From the NCBI GenBank assembly GCA_949296525.1, contig CASFOP010000001.1, forward strand, positions 1 to 64,000: DNA of 64,000 bases, read 5' to 3'. The translations under genes and the position numbers were made by a program. Position 1 is the stretch's first letter. Each line of letters begins with the position of its first letter. The notes under the pieces were generated by a model, which saw nothing but the letters and a program-made list of their open reading frames with translations, searched no databases and had not been told where the DNA came from. This stretch comes from an uncultured bacterium (lineage in GTDB: Bacteria > Elusimicrobiota > Elusimicrobia > Elusimicrobiales > Elusimicrobiaceae). Shown one piece after another: positions 26,225 to 53,702 of this stretch.

Positions 26225-26254
26225 AAGAACCCCGCCTGCAGGCGGGGTTCTTTT
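26225..26254. terminator. Bidirectional terminator
   Basis: AAGAACCCCGCC, loop TGCA, GGCGGGGTTCTTTT between convergent genes. It touches the stop codon of the M3 peptidase gene (26253-26255). Confidence 0.85.
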
Positions 26255-28304
26255 AATGTTCGGTCACTCCCAAACTTTTTAAAAACGCTTTATTATTATA
26301 CGGTCTGCCCAAGAAAGCTTCCACCATTTCATTTTCATCCTTGGCCGTACCGGGCGTATAAATATACCGGCGCAGTTTGGCGCCGAGCTCTTCATTAAAC
26401 AGGCCCTGCTGCTCAAACTGGGCAAAAATATCTTCCGCAATAACCAAAGACCACGCATACACATAATATCCCACATCATACGGGTCGGTCAGACTCATAA
26501 TATGGCCAAAGCTGGCCTGCGGACAGGTACCTTTGGTCATAGGCGTACCTGTAATTTGTTCCATAAGCTGGCCATAGAGCTTTGTAGTGTTTACGCGTTT
26601 ATTGGCCGTGTGGGCGTCTACGTCAAACTGACCCAAAAAGTTTTGGCGCAAAAAGGCCGTCGCTTCCCCCGCACGGCGGGAACGCACCAACGCGGAAATC
26701 AAATCATCCGGCAAAGGATCTCCCGTCTGATAATGGGCGGAAATATTTTTAAGCACCTGCGGCTGCCAGGCCCAGTTTTCCAACAGCTGGGAATGGGTCT
26801 CTATATAATCCCAGGCCACATTGTCCCCGGTCAGGCTGGCATAGCGCGACGTTGCCAAAGACATTTGCAGCACATGGCCGAACTCATGGAACAGCGTTTC
26901 CACGTCGCTGTGCGTCAGCAGGGCGGGCAGGCCGCCGCCGGCGGGCGTAAAATTGGCCGCGATGACAACGGACGGGATTTGATAAGAGCCGTCCGGCTTT
27001 TGGAAACGGTCCACAAAGCTCCATGTGGCGGCATGGGTATATTTGCCGTCACGCGGATACGCGTCCAAATAAAAATAGGAAATAATTTCCCCGCTCTTTT
27101 TATCTTTGATGACATACGTCTGCACATCTTTATGCCAGGCGGGCAGGGCGGCGGGTTCAAACGTCAGCCCGAACAGCGGGCCAAATGTATCAAACATCCC
27201 GGCAATCACCTTATCCGCCGGGAAATATTCTTTGATTTTCTCATCGTCCACGGCATATTTCCGCTTTTTGTACTGGTTGGCCCAGTAAGCCGTTTCCCAG
27301 GCGTTCAGGGTTTGGCTCTCTTCGCCAGTCATTTCTTTTTTAAGTGCCAGGTATTCTTTCATTTCCGCATCGGCCAGCGGGCGGATCTGTTTTTCCAAGT
27401 CTTTCAAAAACGCTTCCAAATTTTCATAATTTTGGGCCATGCGCGCGGGCAGCACATAATCGGGATATTTTTCATAGCCCAGCAGCCGGGCAGTTTTGGA
27501 ACGCAGGAGCAGCGTGTCTTCCAACAGTTTTACATTTTCCTTGCCGCCGCGACGGGCAAATTTGGTTTGCAGGGCTTTGCGGGCGGCCTCGTTTGTGGCA
27601 TTGGCCATAAACGGGTTATAATCGGGGTATTTTAACGTAACAATATAGTTACCGTCCTCCGCACGGGCCAGGCGGCCGATATAGGTTTCTTCCATACCGT
27701 CCAGCTCCCGGCGGGTCAGCTCCAGCTGATCTTGGTAATTGTTTAAATTCACGTTGTAACGCGTGATTTTATCCAAACGCTCAGAATTAAGTTTAACGAA
27801 TTTTTTGAGATCTTTGTCCGAAAGCCCCATGCCGTTTCGTTCAAACTTCACCAGCCATTTGTCCAGCATGCGCTGCTGTTCTTCGTCCAAAGCGGGTTTG
27901 GTGTCTGCATATTCTTTCAGTGCGCGGTATACGTCGCGCCGGGTAAAAAAATCCGTCTTGACGCGGCTGCCTTTGGTTTCCAGCTCCGCTGCGGCGGCGC
28001 GGACGCCTGCATCCTCATGAAAATAAGCCAGCAGGGACAAAGCCTTGGGGACAAACCAATAATTGGTATAGGCGTTTTCCACCGCCAGCGCGGTGTTTTC
28101 AAAATTCCGCTCCGCAGGCGGCACGGCCGTAACGGCGGAGAGGTTTTCTTCCAGCTCCGCGCGGGCCTGTTCTTCCAGGGCGGTCAATTCCGCCGGCGTA
28201 TAATTAAAACGCAACAAACCGTTTTCAAACAGTTTGTCATATGCCCCGCCGAACAGGGCACAGGGTAAAGAAAATACGGCCAAACCGGTTACTATTTTTT
28301 TCAT
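26253..28304 (-). CDS. M3-family oligopeptidase (secreted, Dcp/OpdA-like)
   Basis: Zinc metallo-oligopeptidase of 683 aa. The active-site HEFGH (about residue 470) and the distal Glu segment are present, and the C-terminal catalytic domain is complete. I set the start at 28304 (MKKIVTGLAVF). There a TATAAT ends exactly 6 bases upstream, and the protein then begins with a good signal peptide ending ALFGG. The ATG-like start 45 bases further upstream lies before this promoter and would bury the signal. Export to the periplasm is therefore predicted, like Dcp-like peptidases of some other bacteria. It degrades short peptides, probably for nutrition. Confidence 0.92.
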   Translation of the reverse strand: MKKIVTGLAVFSLPCALFGGAYDKLFENGLLRFNYTPAELTALEEQARAELEENLSAVTAVPPAERNFENTALAVENAYTNYWFVPKALSLLAYFHEDAGVRAAAAELETKGSRVKTDFFTRRDVYRALKEYADTKPALDEEQQRMLDKWLVKFERNGMGLSDKDLKKFVKLNSERLDKITRYNVNLNNYQDQLELTRRELDGMEETYIGRLARAEDGNYIVTLKYPDYNPFMANATNEAARKALQTKFARRGGKENVKLLEDTLLLRSKTARLLGYEKYPDYVLPARMAQNYENLEAFLKDLEKQIRPLADAEMKEYLALKKEMTGEESQTLNAWETAYWANQYKKRKYAVDDEKIKEYFPADKVIAGMFDTFGPLFGLTFEPAALPAWHKDVQTYVIKDKKSGEIISYFYLDAYPRDGKYTHAATWSFVDRFQKPDGSYQIPSVVIAANFTPAGGGLPALLTHSDVETLFHEFGHVLQMSLATSRYASLTGDNVAWDYIETHSQLLENWAWQPQVLKNISAHYQTGDPLPDDLISALVRSRRAGEATAFLRQNFLGQFDVDAHTANKRVNTTKLYGQLMEQITGTPMTKGTCPQASFGHIMSLTDPYDVGYYVYAWSLVIAEDIFAQFEQQGLFNEELGAKLRRYIYTPGTAKDENEMVEAFLGRPYNNKAFLKSLGVTEH

Positions 28305-28310
28305 AGATAA

Positions 28311-28316
28311 ATTATA
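28311..28316 (-). promoter_or_regulatory. -10 of a leaderless promoter (M3 peptidase)
   Basis: On the minus strand TATAAT ends exactly 6 bases before the ATG at 28304. There is no Shine-Dalgarno. It decides the start codon. Confidence 0.62.
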
Positions 28317-28487
28317 GAAAAGTTGGGGGCGAGACAAAAATCCGCTCATTGCCCGGAGAGGGATTTACCGGCCCGCGGCGGGCATACCGGATAACGGCCC
28401 GGAGGATGTGAAACCCGTCCCGAAGGGAAGAAAGTTTGCTGCGGCTTCCCGGCGGGCGCGGGTCATACACCCCTTTCCATCCTTCAA

Positions 28488-28519
28488 CAAAACTCCCCCG
28501 GCATGGAGCGCTGGGGGAG
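28488..28519 (-). terminator. Terminator of the repeat-prepilin gene
   Basis: The stem CTCCCCC/GGGGGAG with a 13-base loop is followed on the minus strand by TTTTGTT. Confidence 0.7.
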
Positions 28520-28541: not shown

Positions 28542-31229
28542 TTATGACGGATCTACACAGTCTTGTGAACAGGAGACATACGTAAACGAAGCAGTCATAC
28601 TGTTCAGATTATATATTGTGCCGTTTTCAATATACACCAGGCTCCCGTTGCGGCAGGTAAGGCTGCTGGCCGATACCGTCTTTGACCCCGCGGAGCTGGA
28701 CACGATTGCCCGGAGGTTGGTGGCCGACACCGTACACGTTGAGAACGGGCAGGAAGATGCGCTGACACTGCCGCGGCAGCGCGCTTGCCCCGGATAGGCC
28801 AGCGTACTCAGGTTTGGCAGGGTACACCCACGGACGGTAACCCCGCCCGTGCCCGACTGTCTGCGAACGGAATACTTGCAACATCTGCCGCTGGAAGAAT
28901 TATACACATACCCGGACGGGCAGCTTCCGCCTTCGCAGGCGCCCCAGGCACCCCAGGCGCAGTTGGTGCAGGTACGTGTTTGCGTGCCCTTACCCGTTAC
29001 GCCGCAGGAACGGCTTTCCTTCTGCCCGCTCCAGCAGGCCCCATCCGGCAACACGCAGGTTCCGGCAGAGGAAATCCACCGTCCCGTAGATTCCTGGCAG
29101 GAATAGCTAATTTTCATCGTACCGCAGCCGCAGGCCTGTTCATAATCATCCGGTTTGGTGGAAGGATCGCACGAGGAGCCCGTACATTCTTGAAGCGTCT
29201 TGCTGCAGCTGCCCCAGGAACCGGTCCTCCATGTTCCCGTGGCAGTATCGCAGGTGACGCTGCGCGTCTGTGTTCCGCAAGTATTGCACGTTTGACTTTC
29301 CGCCGGTTTGCTGGATTCAGTGCATTCTTTAGCGGAACATTCCTCTAATGTCTTACTGCAGGTGCTCCACTGGCTTGTTATCCATGTACCCGTCAGTGAA
29401 TTACAGGTAACTTTGCGCGTCTGCATGCCGCATTTATTGCATTCCCGGGCTTCTGCCGGTTTGGAGGATTCATCGCACTCTTGGCAATCTCCCACGCTGC
29501 AGGTGCCCCAGCTGCCGGTCTGCCAGCCCCCCGTCAAGGGATCACAGGTTACACTGCGGGTTCTGTTCCCCTGATTATTACAGCCGCAGGCTTCGCTTTC
29601 CTCAGGCTTATTGGCCGCACTGCACTCTTTACATTCGCCGACCGTACATCTTGTCCATTCTCCCGTATTCCAGTTACCTGTCCGCTGGTCACAGGTTACG
29701 CTGCGGCTTTGCGTCCCTTCATTGTTACACCCGCAGGTCCGCGCCTCTTCCGGCCTGTCTGCCGCATTACATTCCTGACAATCATTAATACTGCACGCAC
29801 TCCAACTGTCCGTAATCCATTTTCCCGTCTTTTGGTCGCAGGTCACGCTGCGCGTGCGGGTGCCCTCATTATTGCAGCCGCAAGCCTCGCTTTCCGCAGG
29901 CTTGGAAGAAGAGGGGCATTCTTGACAATCATTAATGCTGCACGCACTCCAACTGTCCGTAATCCATTTTCCCGTCTTTTGGTCGCAGGTTACGCTGCGC
30001 GTGCGGGTGCCCTCATTATTGCAGCCGCAGGACTCGCTTTCCGCAGGTTTGGAAGAAGCGGGGCATTCCTGACAATCATTAATGCTGCACGCACTCCAAC
30101 TGTCCGTGATCCAATTTCCCGTTTTCTGGTCACAGGTTACGCTGCGCGTACGGGTGCCTTCGTTATTGCAGCCGCAGGACTCGCTTTCCGCAGGCTTATT
30201 GGCAGCACTGCACTCCTGACAATCGTTAATACTGCAAGCGCCCCAACTGCCCGTATCCCAGTTACCCGTCTTTCGGTCGCAGGTTACGCTACGCGTACGG
30301 GTACCTTCATTATTGCAACCGCAAGCCTCACTGGTTGCAGGCTTGGAAGAGGCGGAACACTCCTGACATGCGCCTATACTGCAGGCACTCCAACTGCCCG
30401 TAGTCCATCCGCCCGTCAAAGGATCGCAGCTCACACTGCGCGTGCGGGTGCCTTCGTTATTGCAGCCGCAAGCTTCACTTTCCGCGGGTTTGGATGAGGC
30501 GGAACATTCTTTGCACGCACCCACGCTGCAAGAACCCCAGCTGCCCGTAGTCCATGCACCCGTAAAGGGATTGCACGACACGCTGCGCGTGCGGGTGCCC
30601 TCATTATTGCAGCCGCAGGCCTCACTGGAAGAAGGGCGGGAAGAAGAAGAACAGCTCTTACAATCTTCCACGCTGCAGGCACTCCAGCCGCCCCACTGCC
30701 CCGTATTGCTGTCACAGCTGCGGGACTGCGTTCCCGTGTTTTGGCATCCGCAGGAACGGCTGGACGAACCGGTGCATTCAATATCCGCCGCACATTCATC
30801 CGCCACCAGCGTGCTGCCGCAGGACGGATAATCCTTATTTAGCTTGCTGCAGTAACTGCCCTCACAGCACAGCTGCCCGTCCTTATAAGAAAGCATTTTG
30901 ATTACATAGTCTTTGCCGGAGGACTGCGCCTGCATCCCCCGGCCGTTTAAGGTATATTCATAATTGGCACTGCTCGCCACGCGCCCTGAATTGCTCTGCA
31001 AAGAAGAAGCCACCGGTAAAGAGTCAAACTTTAAACTGTACTCATCGCCGAAAGTACACCGTTTTTCCTGTTCCGTCCTCACTGCGGAAAGCATATTTTC
31101 CGCTTCCGCCGTCTTACGCGTTTCCAGCACGCGCGTAAACTTCGGCACCGCCACCGTGGCCAATGTGCCCAGTACGATGACAACAACCAGCAGTTCCGTC
31201 AGTGTAAAAGCCCTCTTTTTTGAAAGCAT
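28542..31229 (-). CDS. Giant prepilin-like protein with tandem thrombospondin-like Cys repeats
   Basis: 895 aa. The N-terminus is a class III prepilin leader: KKRAFTLTELLVVVIVLG, with Ala at -1, Phe +1 and Glu +5. A pilin-like stalk and head run to about residue 150. Thirteen Cys-rich units then follow (about 152-775). Eight of them (194-585) are exactly 49 residues, with CGCNNEGTRTRSV, a TG.W.T..W..CS segment and C.EC. This W..CS..C..GTRTR.V.C pattern resembles thrombospondin type 1 repeats. A 120-residue Cys-containing C-terminal domain has no repeat. The size is five to six times that of a normal pilin. It may be a tip adhesin or minor pilin displayed on type IV pili, stabilised by disulfides. 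A GGAGGG site precedes the ATG. Confidence 0.82.
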   Translation of the reverse strand: MLSKKRAFTLTELLVVVIVLGTLATVAVPKFTRVLETRKTAEAENMLSAVRTEQEKRCTFGDEYSLKFDSLPVASSLQSNSGRVASSANYEYTLNGRGMQAQSSGKDYVIKMLSYKDGQLCCEGSYCSKLNKDYPSCGSTLVADECAADIECTGSSSRSCGCQNTGTQSRSCDSNTGQWGGWSACSVEDCKSCSSSSRPSSSEACGCNNEGTRTRSVSCNPFTGAWTTGSWGSCSVGACKECSASSKPAESEACGCNNEGTRTRSVSCDPLTGGWTTGSWSACSIGACQECSASSKPATSEACGCNNEGTRTRSVTCDRKTGNWDTGSWGACSINDCQECSAANKPAESESCGCNNEGTRTRSVTCDQKTGNWITDSWSACSINDCQECPASSKPAESESCGCNNEGTRTRSVTCDQKTGKWITDSWSACSINDCQECPSSSKPAESEACGCNNEGTRTRSVTCDQKTGKWITDSWSACSINDCQECNAADRPEEARTCGCNNEGTQSRSVTCDQRTGNWNTGEWTRCTVGECKECSAANKPEESEACGCNNQGNRTRSVTCDPLTGGWQTGSWGTCSVGDCQECDESSKPAEARECNKCGMQTRKVTCNSLTGTWITSQWSTCSKTLEECSAKECTESSKPAESQTCNTCGTQTRSVTCDTATGTWRTGSWGSCSKTLQECTGSSCDPSTKPDDYEQACGCGTMKISYSCQESTGRWISSAGTCVLPDGACWSGQKESRSCGVTGKGTQTRTCTNCAWGAWGACEGGSCPSGYVYNSSSGRCCKYSVRRQSGTGGVTVRGCTLPNLSTLAYPGQARCRGSVSASSCPFSTCTVSATNLRAIVSSSAGSKTVSASSLTCRNGSLVYIENGTIYNLNSMTASFTYVSCSQDCVDPS
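29475..30650 (-). repeat. Eight 147-bp tandem repeats inside the prepilin gene
   Basis: The eight 49-codon units are in register without indels. For example the string TGACAATC recurs at 29923 and 30070, 147 bases apart. Units 5-7 are nearly identical at DNA level and the outer ones have diverged. This suggests recent expansion in the centre by slippage or unequal recombination. Copy number may vary between strains. Confidence 0.88.
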
Positions 31230-31412
31230 TATCCCTCCGCAAGGCTATATAAAACGCAGAATAAGGGCCCCGCAAAGCCCCCAAAACCATTAAATCCGCC
31301 AGGGGGCCGAAAACCCATTTCTAACTTAAATATAGCAAAAAAAACAAAGCAATATAATGATATCTTCGGAAAATCATCAAAAACAATCCAGCGGGCCCGC
31401 AGCCGGATTTCC

Positions 31413-31424: not shown

Positions 31425-33113
31425 ATGGACAAAGACCAAGGCGTTACCGTTGCCAAATCGGCGGGATTTTGCCCGGGCGTAAAAGGGGCCATAGACAAAG
31501 TGCTGGAACTGGAAACATCCGGCAAAAAACCCATCTATACCCTCGGCCCGCTGATACACAATAAACAGGTTACCGACATGCTGGCGGCCAAACAGATTAC
31601 CTCTGTGGACAAACCCGAACAGGCCGCAGACAAAAAAGGCGTGCTGGTCATCCGCGCGCACGGCATTACGCCGGCCTTCCGCGCAGAAGTAATGCAAAGC
31701 GGTATGGAAGTGGTGGACGCCACCTGCCCGCTGGTCAAGCACGCCCACGACGTCATATCCAAATACGCCGCCAAAGGCTACCACACCGTTATCGTGGGTG
31801 ACGGCGGACACGCCGAGGTCATCGGCCTGTTAGGCTGTACACAGGGCAAAGGCGTGGTCGTGTCCGGACCGGAAGAAGCGGAAAAACTTCCCTCTTTTGA
31901 CAAAGTAAACGTCGTAGCGCAAACCACCCAAAAAGAAAGCGTTTTTGAAGCAACGGCGGAAATCATTAAGAAAAAATCAGCCGTGTGCCAAATTTCCAAC
32001 ACTATTTGTTTCCCGACCAAACAGCGCCAGAGTGAAACCATGCAACTGGCCCAAACGGCGGATTTGGTTATCGTAGTCGGCGGCAAACACAGCGCCAATA
32101 CCGCGCGTCTGGCTATGCTGTGCCGCGAGCTGGCCCCGCAGGTGCTGCACATAGAGACAGAAGCGGAGCTGACCCCGCAGCAGGTGCTGGGGCCCAAACA
32201 CATTTTTATTACCGCCGGCGCTTCCACACCCAACTGGGTCATAGACCAGGTGGCGGACTGGGTGCGCCAAACCCGTAAAAAAAGACACCAAAGCGCGGTC
32301 GGACTCATCCAGCGCACCTGGGCCAAGGCCGTTTCTTATTCTTTTTATACGGCTTTTGCCGCCATGGCACTGACCTATGTATGCATGAAGCTGGAAGGGC
32401 TGCACGCCCAATGGGCACCGCTGCTGTTTTCGTGGCTGTTTGTATTCAGTCTGACCACCGTCAACCGCGCCGCGGAAAACAAAACCCGCCCCGCCGGACG
32501 CCTGCCGGCCTGGGTAGGATATGCGGCCGCTTTGCTGGCATTGGCTGCGGCGGCTTTTATGGGGCTGCGCGTACTGCTGCTGTCTGCGGTATTTTTGGCA
32601 GCGGGGCTTTTATATCCGTTCCGGCATTTTTTCAAATCCAAATTGCTCTCTCTGCCGGGCACCAAAGACTTTTGCACCGCACTGGGCTGGGGTTTTACCT
32701 GTGCATTTCTGCCGGCCTTTGCCAACGGAATGATTTGGCGCAAAGCCCTGTATCTGGCGGTCTTCTATGCAGCGCTTCTGGTGTTTATGCGCTCGGTAAC
32801 GCTGGGTTTTACTTCGGCCAATAAAGATTTAATGATTGGCAAAGAAAGTTTTTATAAAGCCTTTGGCATCGGCATCACCAAGCTGGCCGTGGCCGTTTTG
32901 CTGACCGCGCTGACGGCAGTATTGGTTACGCTGCTGGTCATTACCTGGAAGCCCGCTTTGGTGGGAATGTTGCTCCTGGGCAACTTTTACACGATTTTTA
33001 TAGTAATATACTATTATAGCCATTCCGCTTCGCGCGGGGTGAAGGAAGAAACGCTGATTGACGGACAGTTTTTTGTGCTGTGGCTACTGGCGTGGTTTTC
33101 CCGTTTTATTTAA
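31425..33113 (+). CDS. ispH: IspH (HMBPP reductase) fused to a UbiA-like membrane domain
   Basis: 562 aa. Residues 1-285 are a complete IspH (LytB): cluster Cys at 16 (GFCPGVK), 101 (DATCPLV) and 195 (NTICFPTK), plus HNKQVTD, RAHGI, GHAEVIG, GGKHSANT and GASTPNW. It makes IPP and DMAPP from HMBPP, the last MEP-pathway step. Residues about 293-562 add about eight membrane helices resembling UbiA prenyltransferases (TTVNRAAENK, LLYPFRHFFKSKLLSLPGTKD, RSVTLGFTSANKDLMIGKES). The Asp-rich NDxxDxxxD motifs are not intact, so transferase activity is uncertain. IspH is normally a soluble single-domain protein of about 310 aa. The fusion could anchor it to the membrane next to prenyl chemistry. The downstream gene is pfkA with its own ribosome site. 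Confidence 0.86.
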   Translation: MDKDQGVTVAKSAGFCPGVKGAIDKVLELETSGKKPIYTLGPLIHNKQVTDMLAAKQITSVDKPEQAADKKGVLVIRAHGITPAFRAEVMQSGMEVVDATCPLVKHAHDVISKYAAKGYHTVIVGDGGHAEVIGLLGCTQGKGVVVSGPEEAEKLPSFDKVNVVAQTTQKESVFEATAEIIKKKSAVCQISNTICFPTKQRQSETMQLAQTADLVIVVGGKHSANTARLAMLCRELAPQVLHIETEAELTPQQVLGPKHIFITAGASTPNWVIDQVADWVRQTRKKRHQSAVGLIQRTWAKAVSYSFYTAFAAMALTYVCMKLEGLHAQWAPLLFSWLFVFSLTTVNRAAENKTRPAGRLPAWVGYAAALLALAAAAFMGLRVLLLSAVFLAAGLLYPFRHFFKSKLLSLPGTKDFCTALGWGFTCAFLPAFANGMIWRKALYLAVFYAALLVFMRSVTLGFTSANKDLMIGKESFYKAFGIGITKLAVAVLLTALTAVLVTLLVITWKPALVGMLLLGNFYTIFIVIYYYSHSASRGVKEETLIDGQFFVLWLLAWFSRFI

Positions 33114-35028: not shown

Positions 35029-35499
35029 CTAAAAAGCCATACTTTTACAAATGGAAGCACACTGGGGATGGTCGCCTCTACAGGCGATTTTCCCCGGCGA
35101 AAGAAGCGCTTGGTCATAATACATCCGAATAACACAGCTTCCCTCTCCGTGTATCCCCCGTATCCCCCCAAACACATTCCAATCCCCATTTAAGGCATCA
35201 TTGCCCACATATTGGTCTATATAAGTGCCGTTTTGATAAACAACCAATCCCGCCGCCAGGTTGCTCTCTTCCGTACCGGCCGGGATAGTGATATCCAGTT
35301 TACGCAAATCGTCCGTATACTCGCCGTTGGCCATAAAGTAAATTTCATTGGCGTTTTTTATGGCACGAATCAGCGGTAAAACGCTGTTCATCTTGCTTTT
35401 CAGCACAGCCCTTTCATATTGCGGAAAAGCAATTGCCGCCAAAATACCAATAATCAGCACCACCACTAAAAGTTCTATCAACGTAAAGCCTTTTCTCAT
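35029..35499 (-). CDS. Type IV pilin-like protein (PilE type)
   Basis: 156 aa. Classical prepilin start: KGFTLIELLVVVLIIGILAA, with Gly -1, Phe +1 and Glu +5, then PQYERAVLKSKM and a globular part with NEIYFMANGEYTDDLRKLD. Two Cys near the C-terminus (CASICKSMAF) and others in the head (RGDHPQC) probably form the D-region disulfide. Elusimicrobium genomes carry many such singletons. AGGGG precedes the ATG. The promoter contains a T12 spacer identical to that of the pilin gene at 53.7 kb. Confidence 0.9.
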   Translation of the reverse strand: MRKGFTLIELLVVVLIIGILAAIAFPQYERAVLKSKMNSVLPLIRAIKNANEIYFMANGEYTDDLRKLDITIPAGTEESNLAAGLVVYQNGTYIDQYVGNDALNGDWNVFGGIRGIHGEGSCVIRMYYDQALLSPGKIACRGDHPQCASICKSMAF

Positions 35500-53168: not shown

Positions 53169-53702
53169 TCAGGGCATCAAATAGGCCCGTCCATTACCGA
53201 TATTACGGGAAAAAGTCGCTCCCATAACTTCACGGCAATAAGAACCGTCCTCTCCTTCAAAGGTAACTCCAGAAGCCGTTCTTTCTATGCAGTAAATATC
53301 ATTGGCCGTAGGCAGTGTGCCCACCTGATAAGCCGCCATATACCCCGCCCCTTTATACGGGCCGCTGATGCGCCCGACATATACGGCCTTGTAATTGGGA
53401 TTGGTTTGCAGGCTCCATTCCCCGTTGGACACGGCCGGAAGGCCGCTGTACCATTTTTCCGTGCCGGTCCAGGGCATGGAAATATCCAGGTCTTCCAGCG
53501 AATTGGTATATTCACCGTTGGCCATATAATACAAATGTTGGGCGTTTAAAAAACTTTTAATAATGGCCAGTGCCTGGGACGCGCGGGATTTTTCCACCGC
53601 TTTTTGATACTGCGGCAGGGCCACGGCGGCCAGTATACCGATAATTAAAACAACCACTAACAGCTCTATTAGCGTAAATGCGGCGTTTTTCTTTATATTC
53701 AT
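53169..53702 (-). CDS. Type IV pilin-like protein (PilE type)
   Basis: 177 aa. Prepilin leader KKNAAFTLIELLVVVLIIGI with Ala at -1, Phe +1 and Glu +5, then LPQYQKAVEKSRASQALAII, and a globular domain with YYMANGEYTNSLEDLD. A Cys pair (YCIERTASG and SYCREVMG) flanks the C-terminal loop. Close relative of the pilin at 35 kb in the first 70 residues and different afterwards. There is no Shine-Dalgarno. The T12-spacer promoter places transcription at the ATG itself. Confidence 0.9.
   Translation of the reverse strand: MNIKKNAAFTLIELLVVVLIIGILAAVALPQYQKAVEKSRASQALAIIKSFLNAQHLYYMANGEYTNSLEDLDISMPWTGTEKWYSGLPAVSNGEWSLQTNPNYKAVYVGRISGPYKGAGYMAAYQVGTLPTANDIYCIERTASGVTFEGEDGSYCREVMGATFSRNIGNGRAYLMP

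Follow-up and report, generated by a model that had tools for sequence, protein, structure and literature searches.

A predicted modular type IV pilin with thrombospondin type 1-like repeats in the Elusimicrobiaceae

Modular pilins and the prepilin gene

Type IV pilins that carry additional modules have been described in Streptococcus sanguinis, where PilB bears a vWA module and PilC a lectin module (Raynaud 2021, PMC8179133; Shahin 2023, PMC9934059). The 2021 survey includes a case of 860 residues with 12 copies of one motif, the most extreme repeat case we came across, and "thrombospondin" is absent as a term from its main text (PMC8179133). Type IVa pili also possess PilC/PilY1, described as large modular proteins presented at the tip (PMC10191384), which are not pilins and end in a C-terminal beta-propeller (PMC8179133). 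Here we analysed 64,000 nucleotides of contig CASFOP010000001.1 (assembly GCA_949296525.1; hereafter the window) from an uncultured member of the Elusimicrobiaceae, in which a gene of 895 codons (28542..31229, stop codon included) encodes a modular prepilin with cysteine-rich repeats that resemble thrombospondin type 1 (TSP1) domains. This gene and all features described below lie on the minus strand unless stated otherwise.

Like the known modular pilins, the protein combines a class III leader and a pilin moiety with extra C-terminal modules that are presumed to be presented at the filament tip. It is unlike them in its TSP1-like array of ten full units, which is followed by a separate tip, and in that frames of a sister genus reach 2290 codons. 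With PilC/PilY1 it would share a large, modular, tip-presented architecture, but here the pilin itself is the carrier. Searches limited to an open-licence library turned up no report of repeats resembling TSP1, whether from pilins or from Elusimicrobiota, and none of a re-ordered series of TSP1 blocks; the thrombospondin-3 of PMC12057145 is a different domain. We consider it fairly probable that the product is a modular minor type IV pilin with an expandable stalk of disulfide-stapled TSP1-like repeats and a swappable tip.

The frame is uninterrupted for all 895 codons from an ATG that is closely preceded by a Shine-Dalgarno-like GGAGGG (31233..31238, read directly from the sequence). The N-terminus reads MLSKKRA^FTLTELL, with glutamate at mature position 5; prepilin peptidase is predicted to remove the seven-residue leader MLSKKRA (31209..31229) by cutting after Ala7, which would leave Phe8 as the first mature residue. 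Residue 8 is also the position opposite which the pilin chains of PDB entries start. The whole prepilin passed the cut-off of Pfam N_methyl (PF07963) barely, at 21.3 bits against 21.2, and that of the NCBIfam prepilin domain TIGR02532 clearly, at 21.9 bits against 16.3. Sequence matches in the PDB were mostly to named pilins and fell inside residues 2-85. The first-pass annotation of an 895-residue prepilin with a class III leader was thus borne out. Among the families searched, the genome encodes one prepilin peptidase (PF01478) and four PF00437 ATPases.

The repeat units and the order of their blocks

Behind the pilin moiety, residues ~160-895 form a grafted non-pilin extension, most of which is repetitive. 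A shortened first repeat recognised by its block motifs (residues 160-190; 30660..30752) is followed by eight repeats of 49 residues in exact 147-bp register (residues 191-582; 29484..30659), as established by lag identity, Tandem Repeats Finder and motifs. Repeats 9 and 10, identified by block motifs A, B and C, have slightly altered spacing (residues 583-682; 29184..29483), and degenerate repeats come after them (residues 683-769; 28923..29183). The eight units in register agree with what had been noted at first pass. The thirteen repeats counted there are a fair figure if ten units are taken as full and three, near residues 166, 703 and 748, as degenerate. Each repeat unit has six cysteines, two tryptophans and one conserved arginine, and the whole prepilin has 92 cysteines.

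Identity at a lag of 147 bases within the array was 0.750; 1000 codon shuffles averaged 0.291 and never exceeded 0.334. Tandem Repeats Finder reported a period of 147 with 5.8 copies. A motif scan, with 1000 shuffles of residues 131-790 as the control, found block A (W..G.W..CS) 11 times, 6 of them in the strict W..G.W form, against 0.099 per shuffle; block B (G.Q.R.V.C, its third residue being either Q or R) 10 times, against 0.004; and block C (C....KP.....C) 10 times, against 0.027. Unit comparison showed that units 4-6 (29778..30218), which are the nearly identical units numbered 5-7 at first pass, share 84-95% of their DNA, 95% being the closest pair. Because of this near-identity, it is plausible from the sequence that repeat number varies between strains. 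For 15 of the 28 pairs of units, identity was at least as high in amino acids as in DNA, which is in line with selection on the protein.

The units had been described as thrombospondin-type at first pass. When searched in their natural order, they gave no significant match: the whole prepilin hit no TSP1 family of Pfam at E<=10, and the isolated array scored 15.6 bits against TSP1_ADAMTS (PF19030), below the cut-off of 23.8. A pattern search of the window and related genomes yielded 47 units, 46 after removal of near-duplicates, of which 30 were aligned (alignment A1); the remaining 16 were left out by eye because they were irregular, diverged more or closely resembled a unit already included, so that counts out of 30 describe eye-selected units and not every unit. 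TSP1_ADAMTS matched 23 of the 30 at E<=10 (best 0.0011) and none at E<=0.001. A plain TSP1 domain was therefore rejected for the natural order, in which no array or unit passed the Pfam cut-offs. No PF00090 match exceeded its cut-off in the window's genome, the sole match being one of 13.6 bits on contig C13, outside the prepilin gene; sub-threshold PF00090 matches also occurred in 9 of 14 control genomes. Muc_B2 (23.1 bits against 23.5), MP31 and zinc fingers gave weak, scattered matches, all under their cut-offs, and were set aside.

When the unit profile was compared with the PDB, the best match was the TSP1-domain protein 7A (0.0034), in split pieces that were out of order, and it was therefore suspected that the TSP1 elements were present in another order. 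With cut points chosen visually from the alignment, one window unit was divided into A (W..G.W..CS...C), C (.C....KP.....C) and B (GC.N.GTRTRSV.C...TG.), and for this single unit the blocks were joined in all six orders. Joined as A-B-C, the unit covered profile positions 1-50 with a score of 27.2 bits, above the TSP1_ADAMTS cut-off, whereas the natural order A-C-B gave 16.3 bits and the five orders other than A-B-C spanned 13.6-18.9. The reversed unit gave no TSP1 match. Three further window units joined as A-B-C scored 28.6, 29.7 and 26.3 bits, so that all four of the window units tested passed. As only the re-joined order does so, the repeats are not standard TSP1 domains in sequence terms.

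The same re-ordering brought 14 of the 30 aligned units to E<=0.001, with a best value of 7.7e-7, whereas none of 30 shuffled units, in which residues were mixed inside blocks and cysteines held fixed, matched TSP1 at E<=10. Trying six orders means that the improvement in E-value must be discounted about sixfold, and it is still large. Against the PDB, the re-ordered profile aligned over all 49 positions, end to end, with the protein 7A TSP1 domain (9.6e-6) and also matched F-spondin (0.53); its shuffled counterpart had no match at E<=1. By sequence comparison, each unit consists of three blocks of ADAMTS-type TSP1 with matching spacing, arranged A-C-B along the chain. The link to TSP1 made at first pass was thus partly right. 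Profile searches assume one order, and standard annotation therefore misses the relation.

AlphaFold models were computed with the repeats serving as their own alignment. The four-unit model (mean pLDDT 90.2, pTM 0.47) contained the same small antiparallel sheet in every unit, and a single unit was modelled with a pLDDT of 87.3 and a pTM of 0.56. Within each modelled unit the strands are ordered C-block, B-block (two strands), A-block; in the domain register this predicted C-B-A order is the reverse of the A-B-C of TSP1, and no circular permutation interconverts the two. On paper, the same strand neighbours and directions could be kept after such re-ordering. For the four-unit model, the best Foldseek match had an E-value of 0.059 (beta-propeller chains) and the best VIA match a Z of 3.0; for the single unit, the best Foldseek E-value was 3.5, and VIA placed none of 41 chains at Z>=2.

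Taken together, these results make it possible, at somewhat less than even odds, that the unit is a bacterial TSP1 repeat in which the three strands took up a new, non-cyclic order with block spacing preserved, and which was then amplified into the stalks of giant pilins in one gut family of Elusimicrobiota. Several observations weigh against this proposal or against the stalk model built on it. Sixteen of the 30 re-ordered units still fell short of E<=0.001, and PF19030 in natural order exceeded its cut-off in 0 of 294 genomes of the phylum. Sub-threshold PF19030 matches were present in seven of these genomes; frames were inspected at L217, L219, L221, L222 and L223, five of these loci, and one of the motifs looked for was found in a frame only at L221, the repeat protein of genome G020 and already among the known family members. 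The fold searches listed no TSP1 structure for either model, which is no evidence either way, since Foldseek follows chain order and might overlook a fold whose strands are re-ordered. Inter-unit geometry in the four-unit model is uncertain, as its pTM indicates, and a rigid stalk is therefore unsupported. Finally, the 94%-complete genome had no match to DsbA (PF01323), VKOR (PF07884) or Thioredoxin_4 (PF13462), so that any disulfides would need another route.

The block match could instead represent convergence on a mini-sheet layered by tryptophan, arginine and cysteine, the repeat having no TSP1 ancestry and the protein otherwise working as proposed above. We regard this as a real, if rather less than even, prospect. 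It is consistent with the failure of the natural order in the TSP1 test and with the fold searches, in which TSP1 is unlisted, and a Trp-Arg layered sheet would presumably favour such motifs. Set against it, the match extends to three distinct blocks whose internal spacing agrees, A and C each contribute about 8-9 bits in the permutation test, and the re-ordered profile aligns with a TSP1 domain from end to end. The units and ADAMTS-type TSP1 (PF19030) have in common the three blocks with their internal spacing, six cysteines, two tryptophans and a conserved arginine; they differ in that the units run A-C-B, fail the cut-off and retrieve no TSP1 in fold searches.

The lack of matches to the oxidative folding families also bears on whether the cysteines are paired. 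DsbA matches within the organism's own family were marginal except in G020, and 108 of 294 phylum genomes passed the cut-off. Many relatives of the same order and class carry a DsbA. Both the genome's own lack of matches and the marginal matches in its family would suit a protein with metal-binding cysteines that stay reduced in the anaerobic gut, its array forming a metal-loaded or redox-active surface layer and not a disulfide stalk. We consider this very improbable, given that the six cysteines and the conserved tryptophans and arginine of each unit follow the TSP1 pattern and that metal-binding families match single units only, and weakly.

Carrier, paralogues and tips

A genus search and alignment A2 defined a carrier pilin module at residues 1-150 (30780..31229) with the conserved motif LCCE..YC..LNKDYP.C. 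At E<=1e-22 it was found in 59 of 66 genomes of the genus, in one to five copies where present, and residues 111-895 were matched in 28 of the 66 at E<=1e-10. The carrier-bearing relatives have varied cysteine-rich extensions, with or without TSP1-like units. Proteins with both leader and repeats, whose absence from relatives would have counted against the first-pass interpretation, are present in them. Relatives that carry a name come from assemblies labelled Elusimicrobium or Elusimicrobiaceae, many of rumen or gut origin. The scan of relatives covered genome contigs and kept 80 of 103 confirmed loci; lower-ranked loci, including leader-only matches in unrelated phyla, were not used. A mobile-element origin was rejected: a four-unit query was unmatched in plasmids and phages, and seven stretches fitting the pattern in viral contigs yielded none confirmed by tblastn.

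Across the phylum sample, the unit profile was found in 33 of 294 genomes and 2 of 90 genera, both genera belonging to one family. The second, sister genus has pilin-motif frames of 2290, 1866 and 1605 codons, in which TSP1-like units near the start give way to long arrays of another cysteine repeat. In four of its loci (L100, L103, L106 and L107) the frames range from 1361 to 2290 codons with repeat arrays of the CTN..GKYWTGHGG type, and the pilin motif lies some 40-50 residues past the first methionine, an unusually long pre-sequence. A single TSP1-like unit also occurs in short frames at L101 (219 and 164 residues) and L108 (263 residues) that have no pilin motif, some of them with starts resembling signal peptides; the TSP1-like module is therefore not confined to pilins.

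The last module, the C-terminal tip (residues 770-895; 28545..28922), has no Pfam match; residues 669-895 likewise gave nothing in Pfam at E<=0.01. It is 80% identical to the tip of L022, from another species (G046), and 41% identical to that of L002, a paralogue fragment in the same genome. Two further such genes appear to exist in that genome, broken at contig ends. Four contig ends fall in fragments L002-L005: the final 99 bases are exactly the same in the two start fragments, L003 and L004, as are the initial 99 bases in the two end fragments, L002 and L005, and the paralogue tips differ. We infer that the shared ends are an assembly-graph effect, with a word size of about 99, of two genes with identical interiors. 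The tip of L005 is found again on L198, L199 and L214, proteins whose linkers are different. Because tips differ between paralogues and recur elsewhere, carrier, stalk and tip seem, on present sequences, to move separately. In several assemblies, contigs stop inside such genes (L002-L005, L030, L039, L061 and L062), and short-read assemblies therefore probably under-report their number and length.

The window's genome (1.54 Mb) contains 83 places that match the prepilin, nearly all through the pilin N-terminus. These places, together with the exact DNA common to the paralogues, might suggest that the long pilins are mainly sequence stores from which shorter pilins are varied by recombination. 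Such a reservoir role is in our judgement very improbable. The window gene is intact, with a leader and a start signal, and past query residue 190 the matches in the genome are limited to the window gene and fragments on contigs C23 and C19, so that the short pilins lack the repeats.

A further question is whether the repeats, not the tip, are the binding surface; at first pass, host glycans or matrix had been named as what they may bind. Animal members of the TSP1 family bind glycosaminoglycans, and the blocks resemble TSP1. A lectin graft on a pilin has also been documented (PMC9934059). By analogy, the array might bind sulfated glycans, mucin or plant-cell-wall polymers multivalently. This seems unlikely to us, as the newest units are near-identical while the tips of the paralogues differ, which better fits a spacer with a specific tip.

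The neighbours of the prepilin gene are an M3-family peptidase gene on the same strand (26253-28349) and a LytB/IspH gene on the opposite strand (31425-33113), the latter a single plus-strand frame that combines LytB/IspH with a membrane-like region, to which UbiA prenyltransferase matched below threshold. A pattern scan found a terminator-like hairpin and T-run 3' of the stop codon (28492..28509), a weak call, as the region held five such patterns where 4.0 were expected. Two of the 83 places that match the prepilin are additional prepilin genes within the window (35032-35499 and 53172-53702), one of them with a sub-threshold ComP_DUS match.

Proposed mechanism and significance

For a modular minor pilin in the sense of Raynaud 2021 (PMC8179133), we propose the following. 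The first ~150 residues would serve as the carrier: prepilin peptidase would remove the leader, and the N-terminal helix would pack into the filament. Because the protein is bulky, it would most likely sit at or near the filament tip. The next ~600 residues, comprising about ten disulfide-stapled TSP1-like units, would form a stalk that holds the last ~125 residues, a putative receptor-binding tip, away from the filament, where it could mediate adhesion. Recombination among near-identical units and paralogues may alter stalk length and swap tips.

So understood, the family would be an extreme of modular pilins, in which one carrier is combined with arrays of small cysteine repeats and exchangeable tips. 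It also poses a concrete question, namely how 92 exported cysteines are paired in an organism with no detected DsbA or VKOR. If the units are indeed re-ordered TSP1 repeats, they would amount to an experiment of nature on whether a layered Trp/Arg/disulfide fold can tolerate a changed strand order, and to a naturally occurring example of a classic extracellular domain with rewired strand connections.
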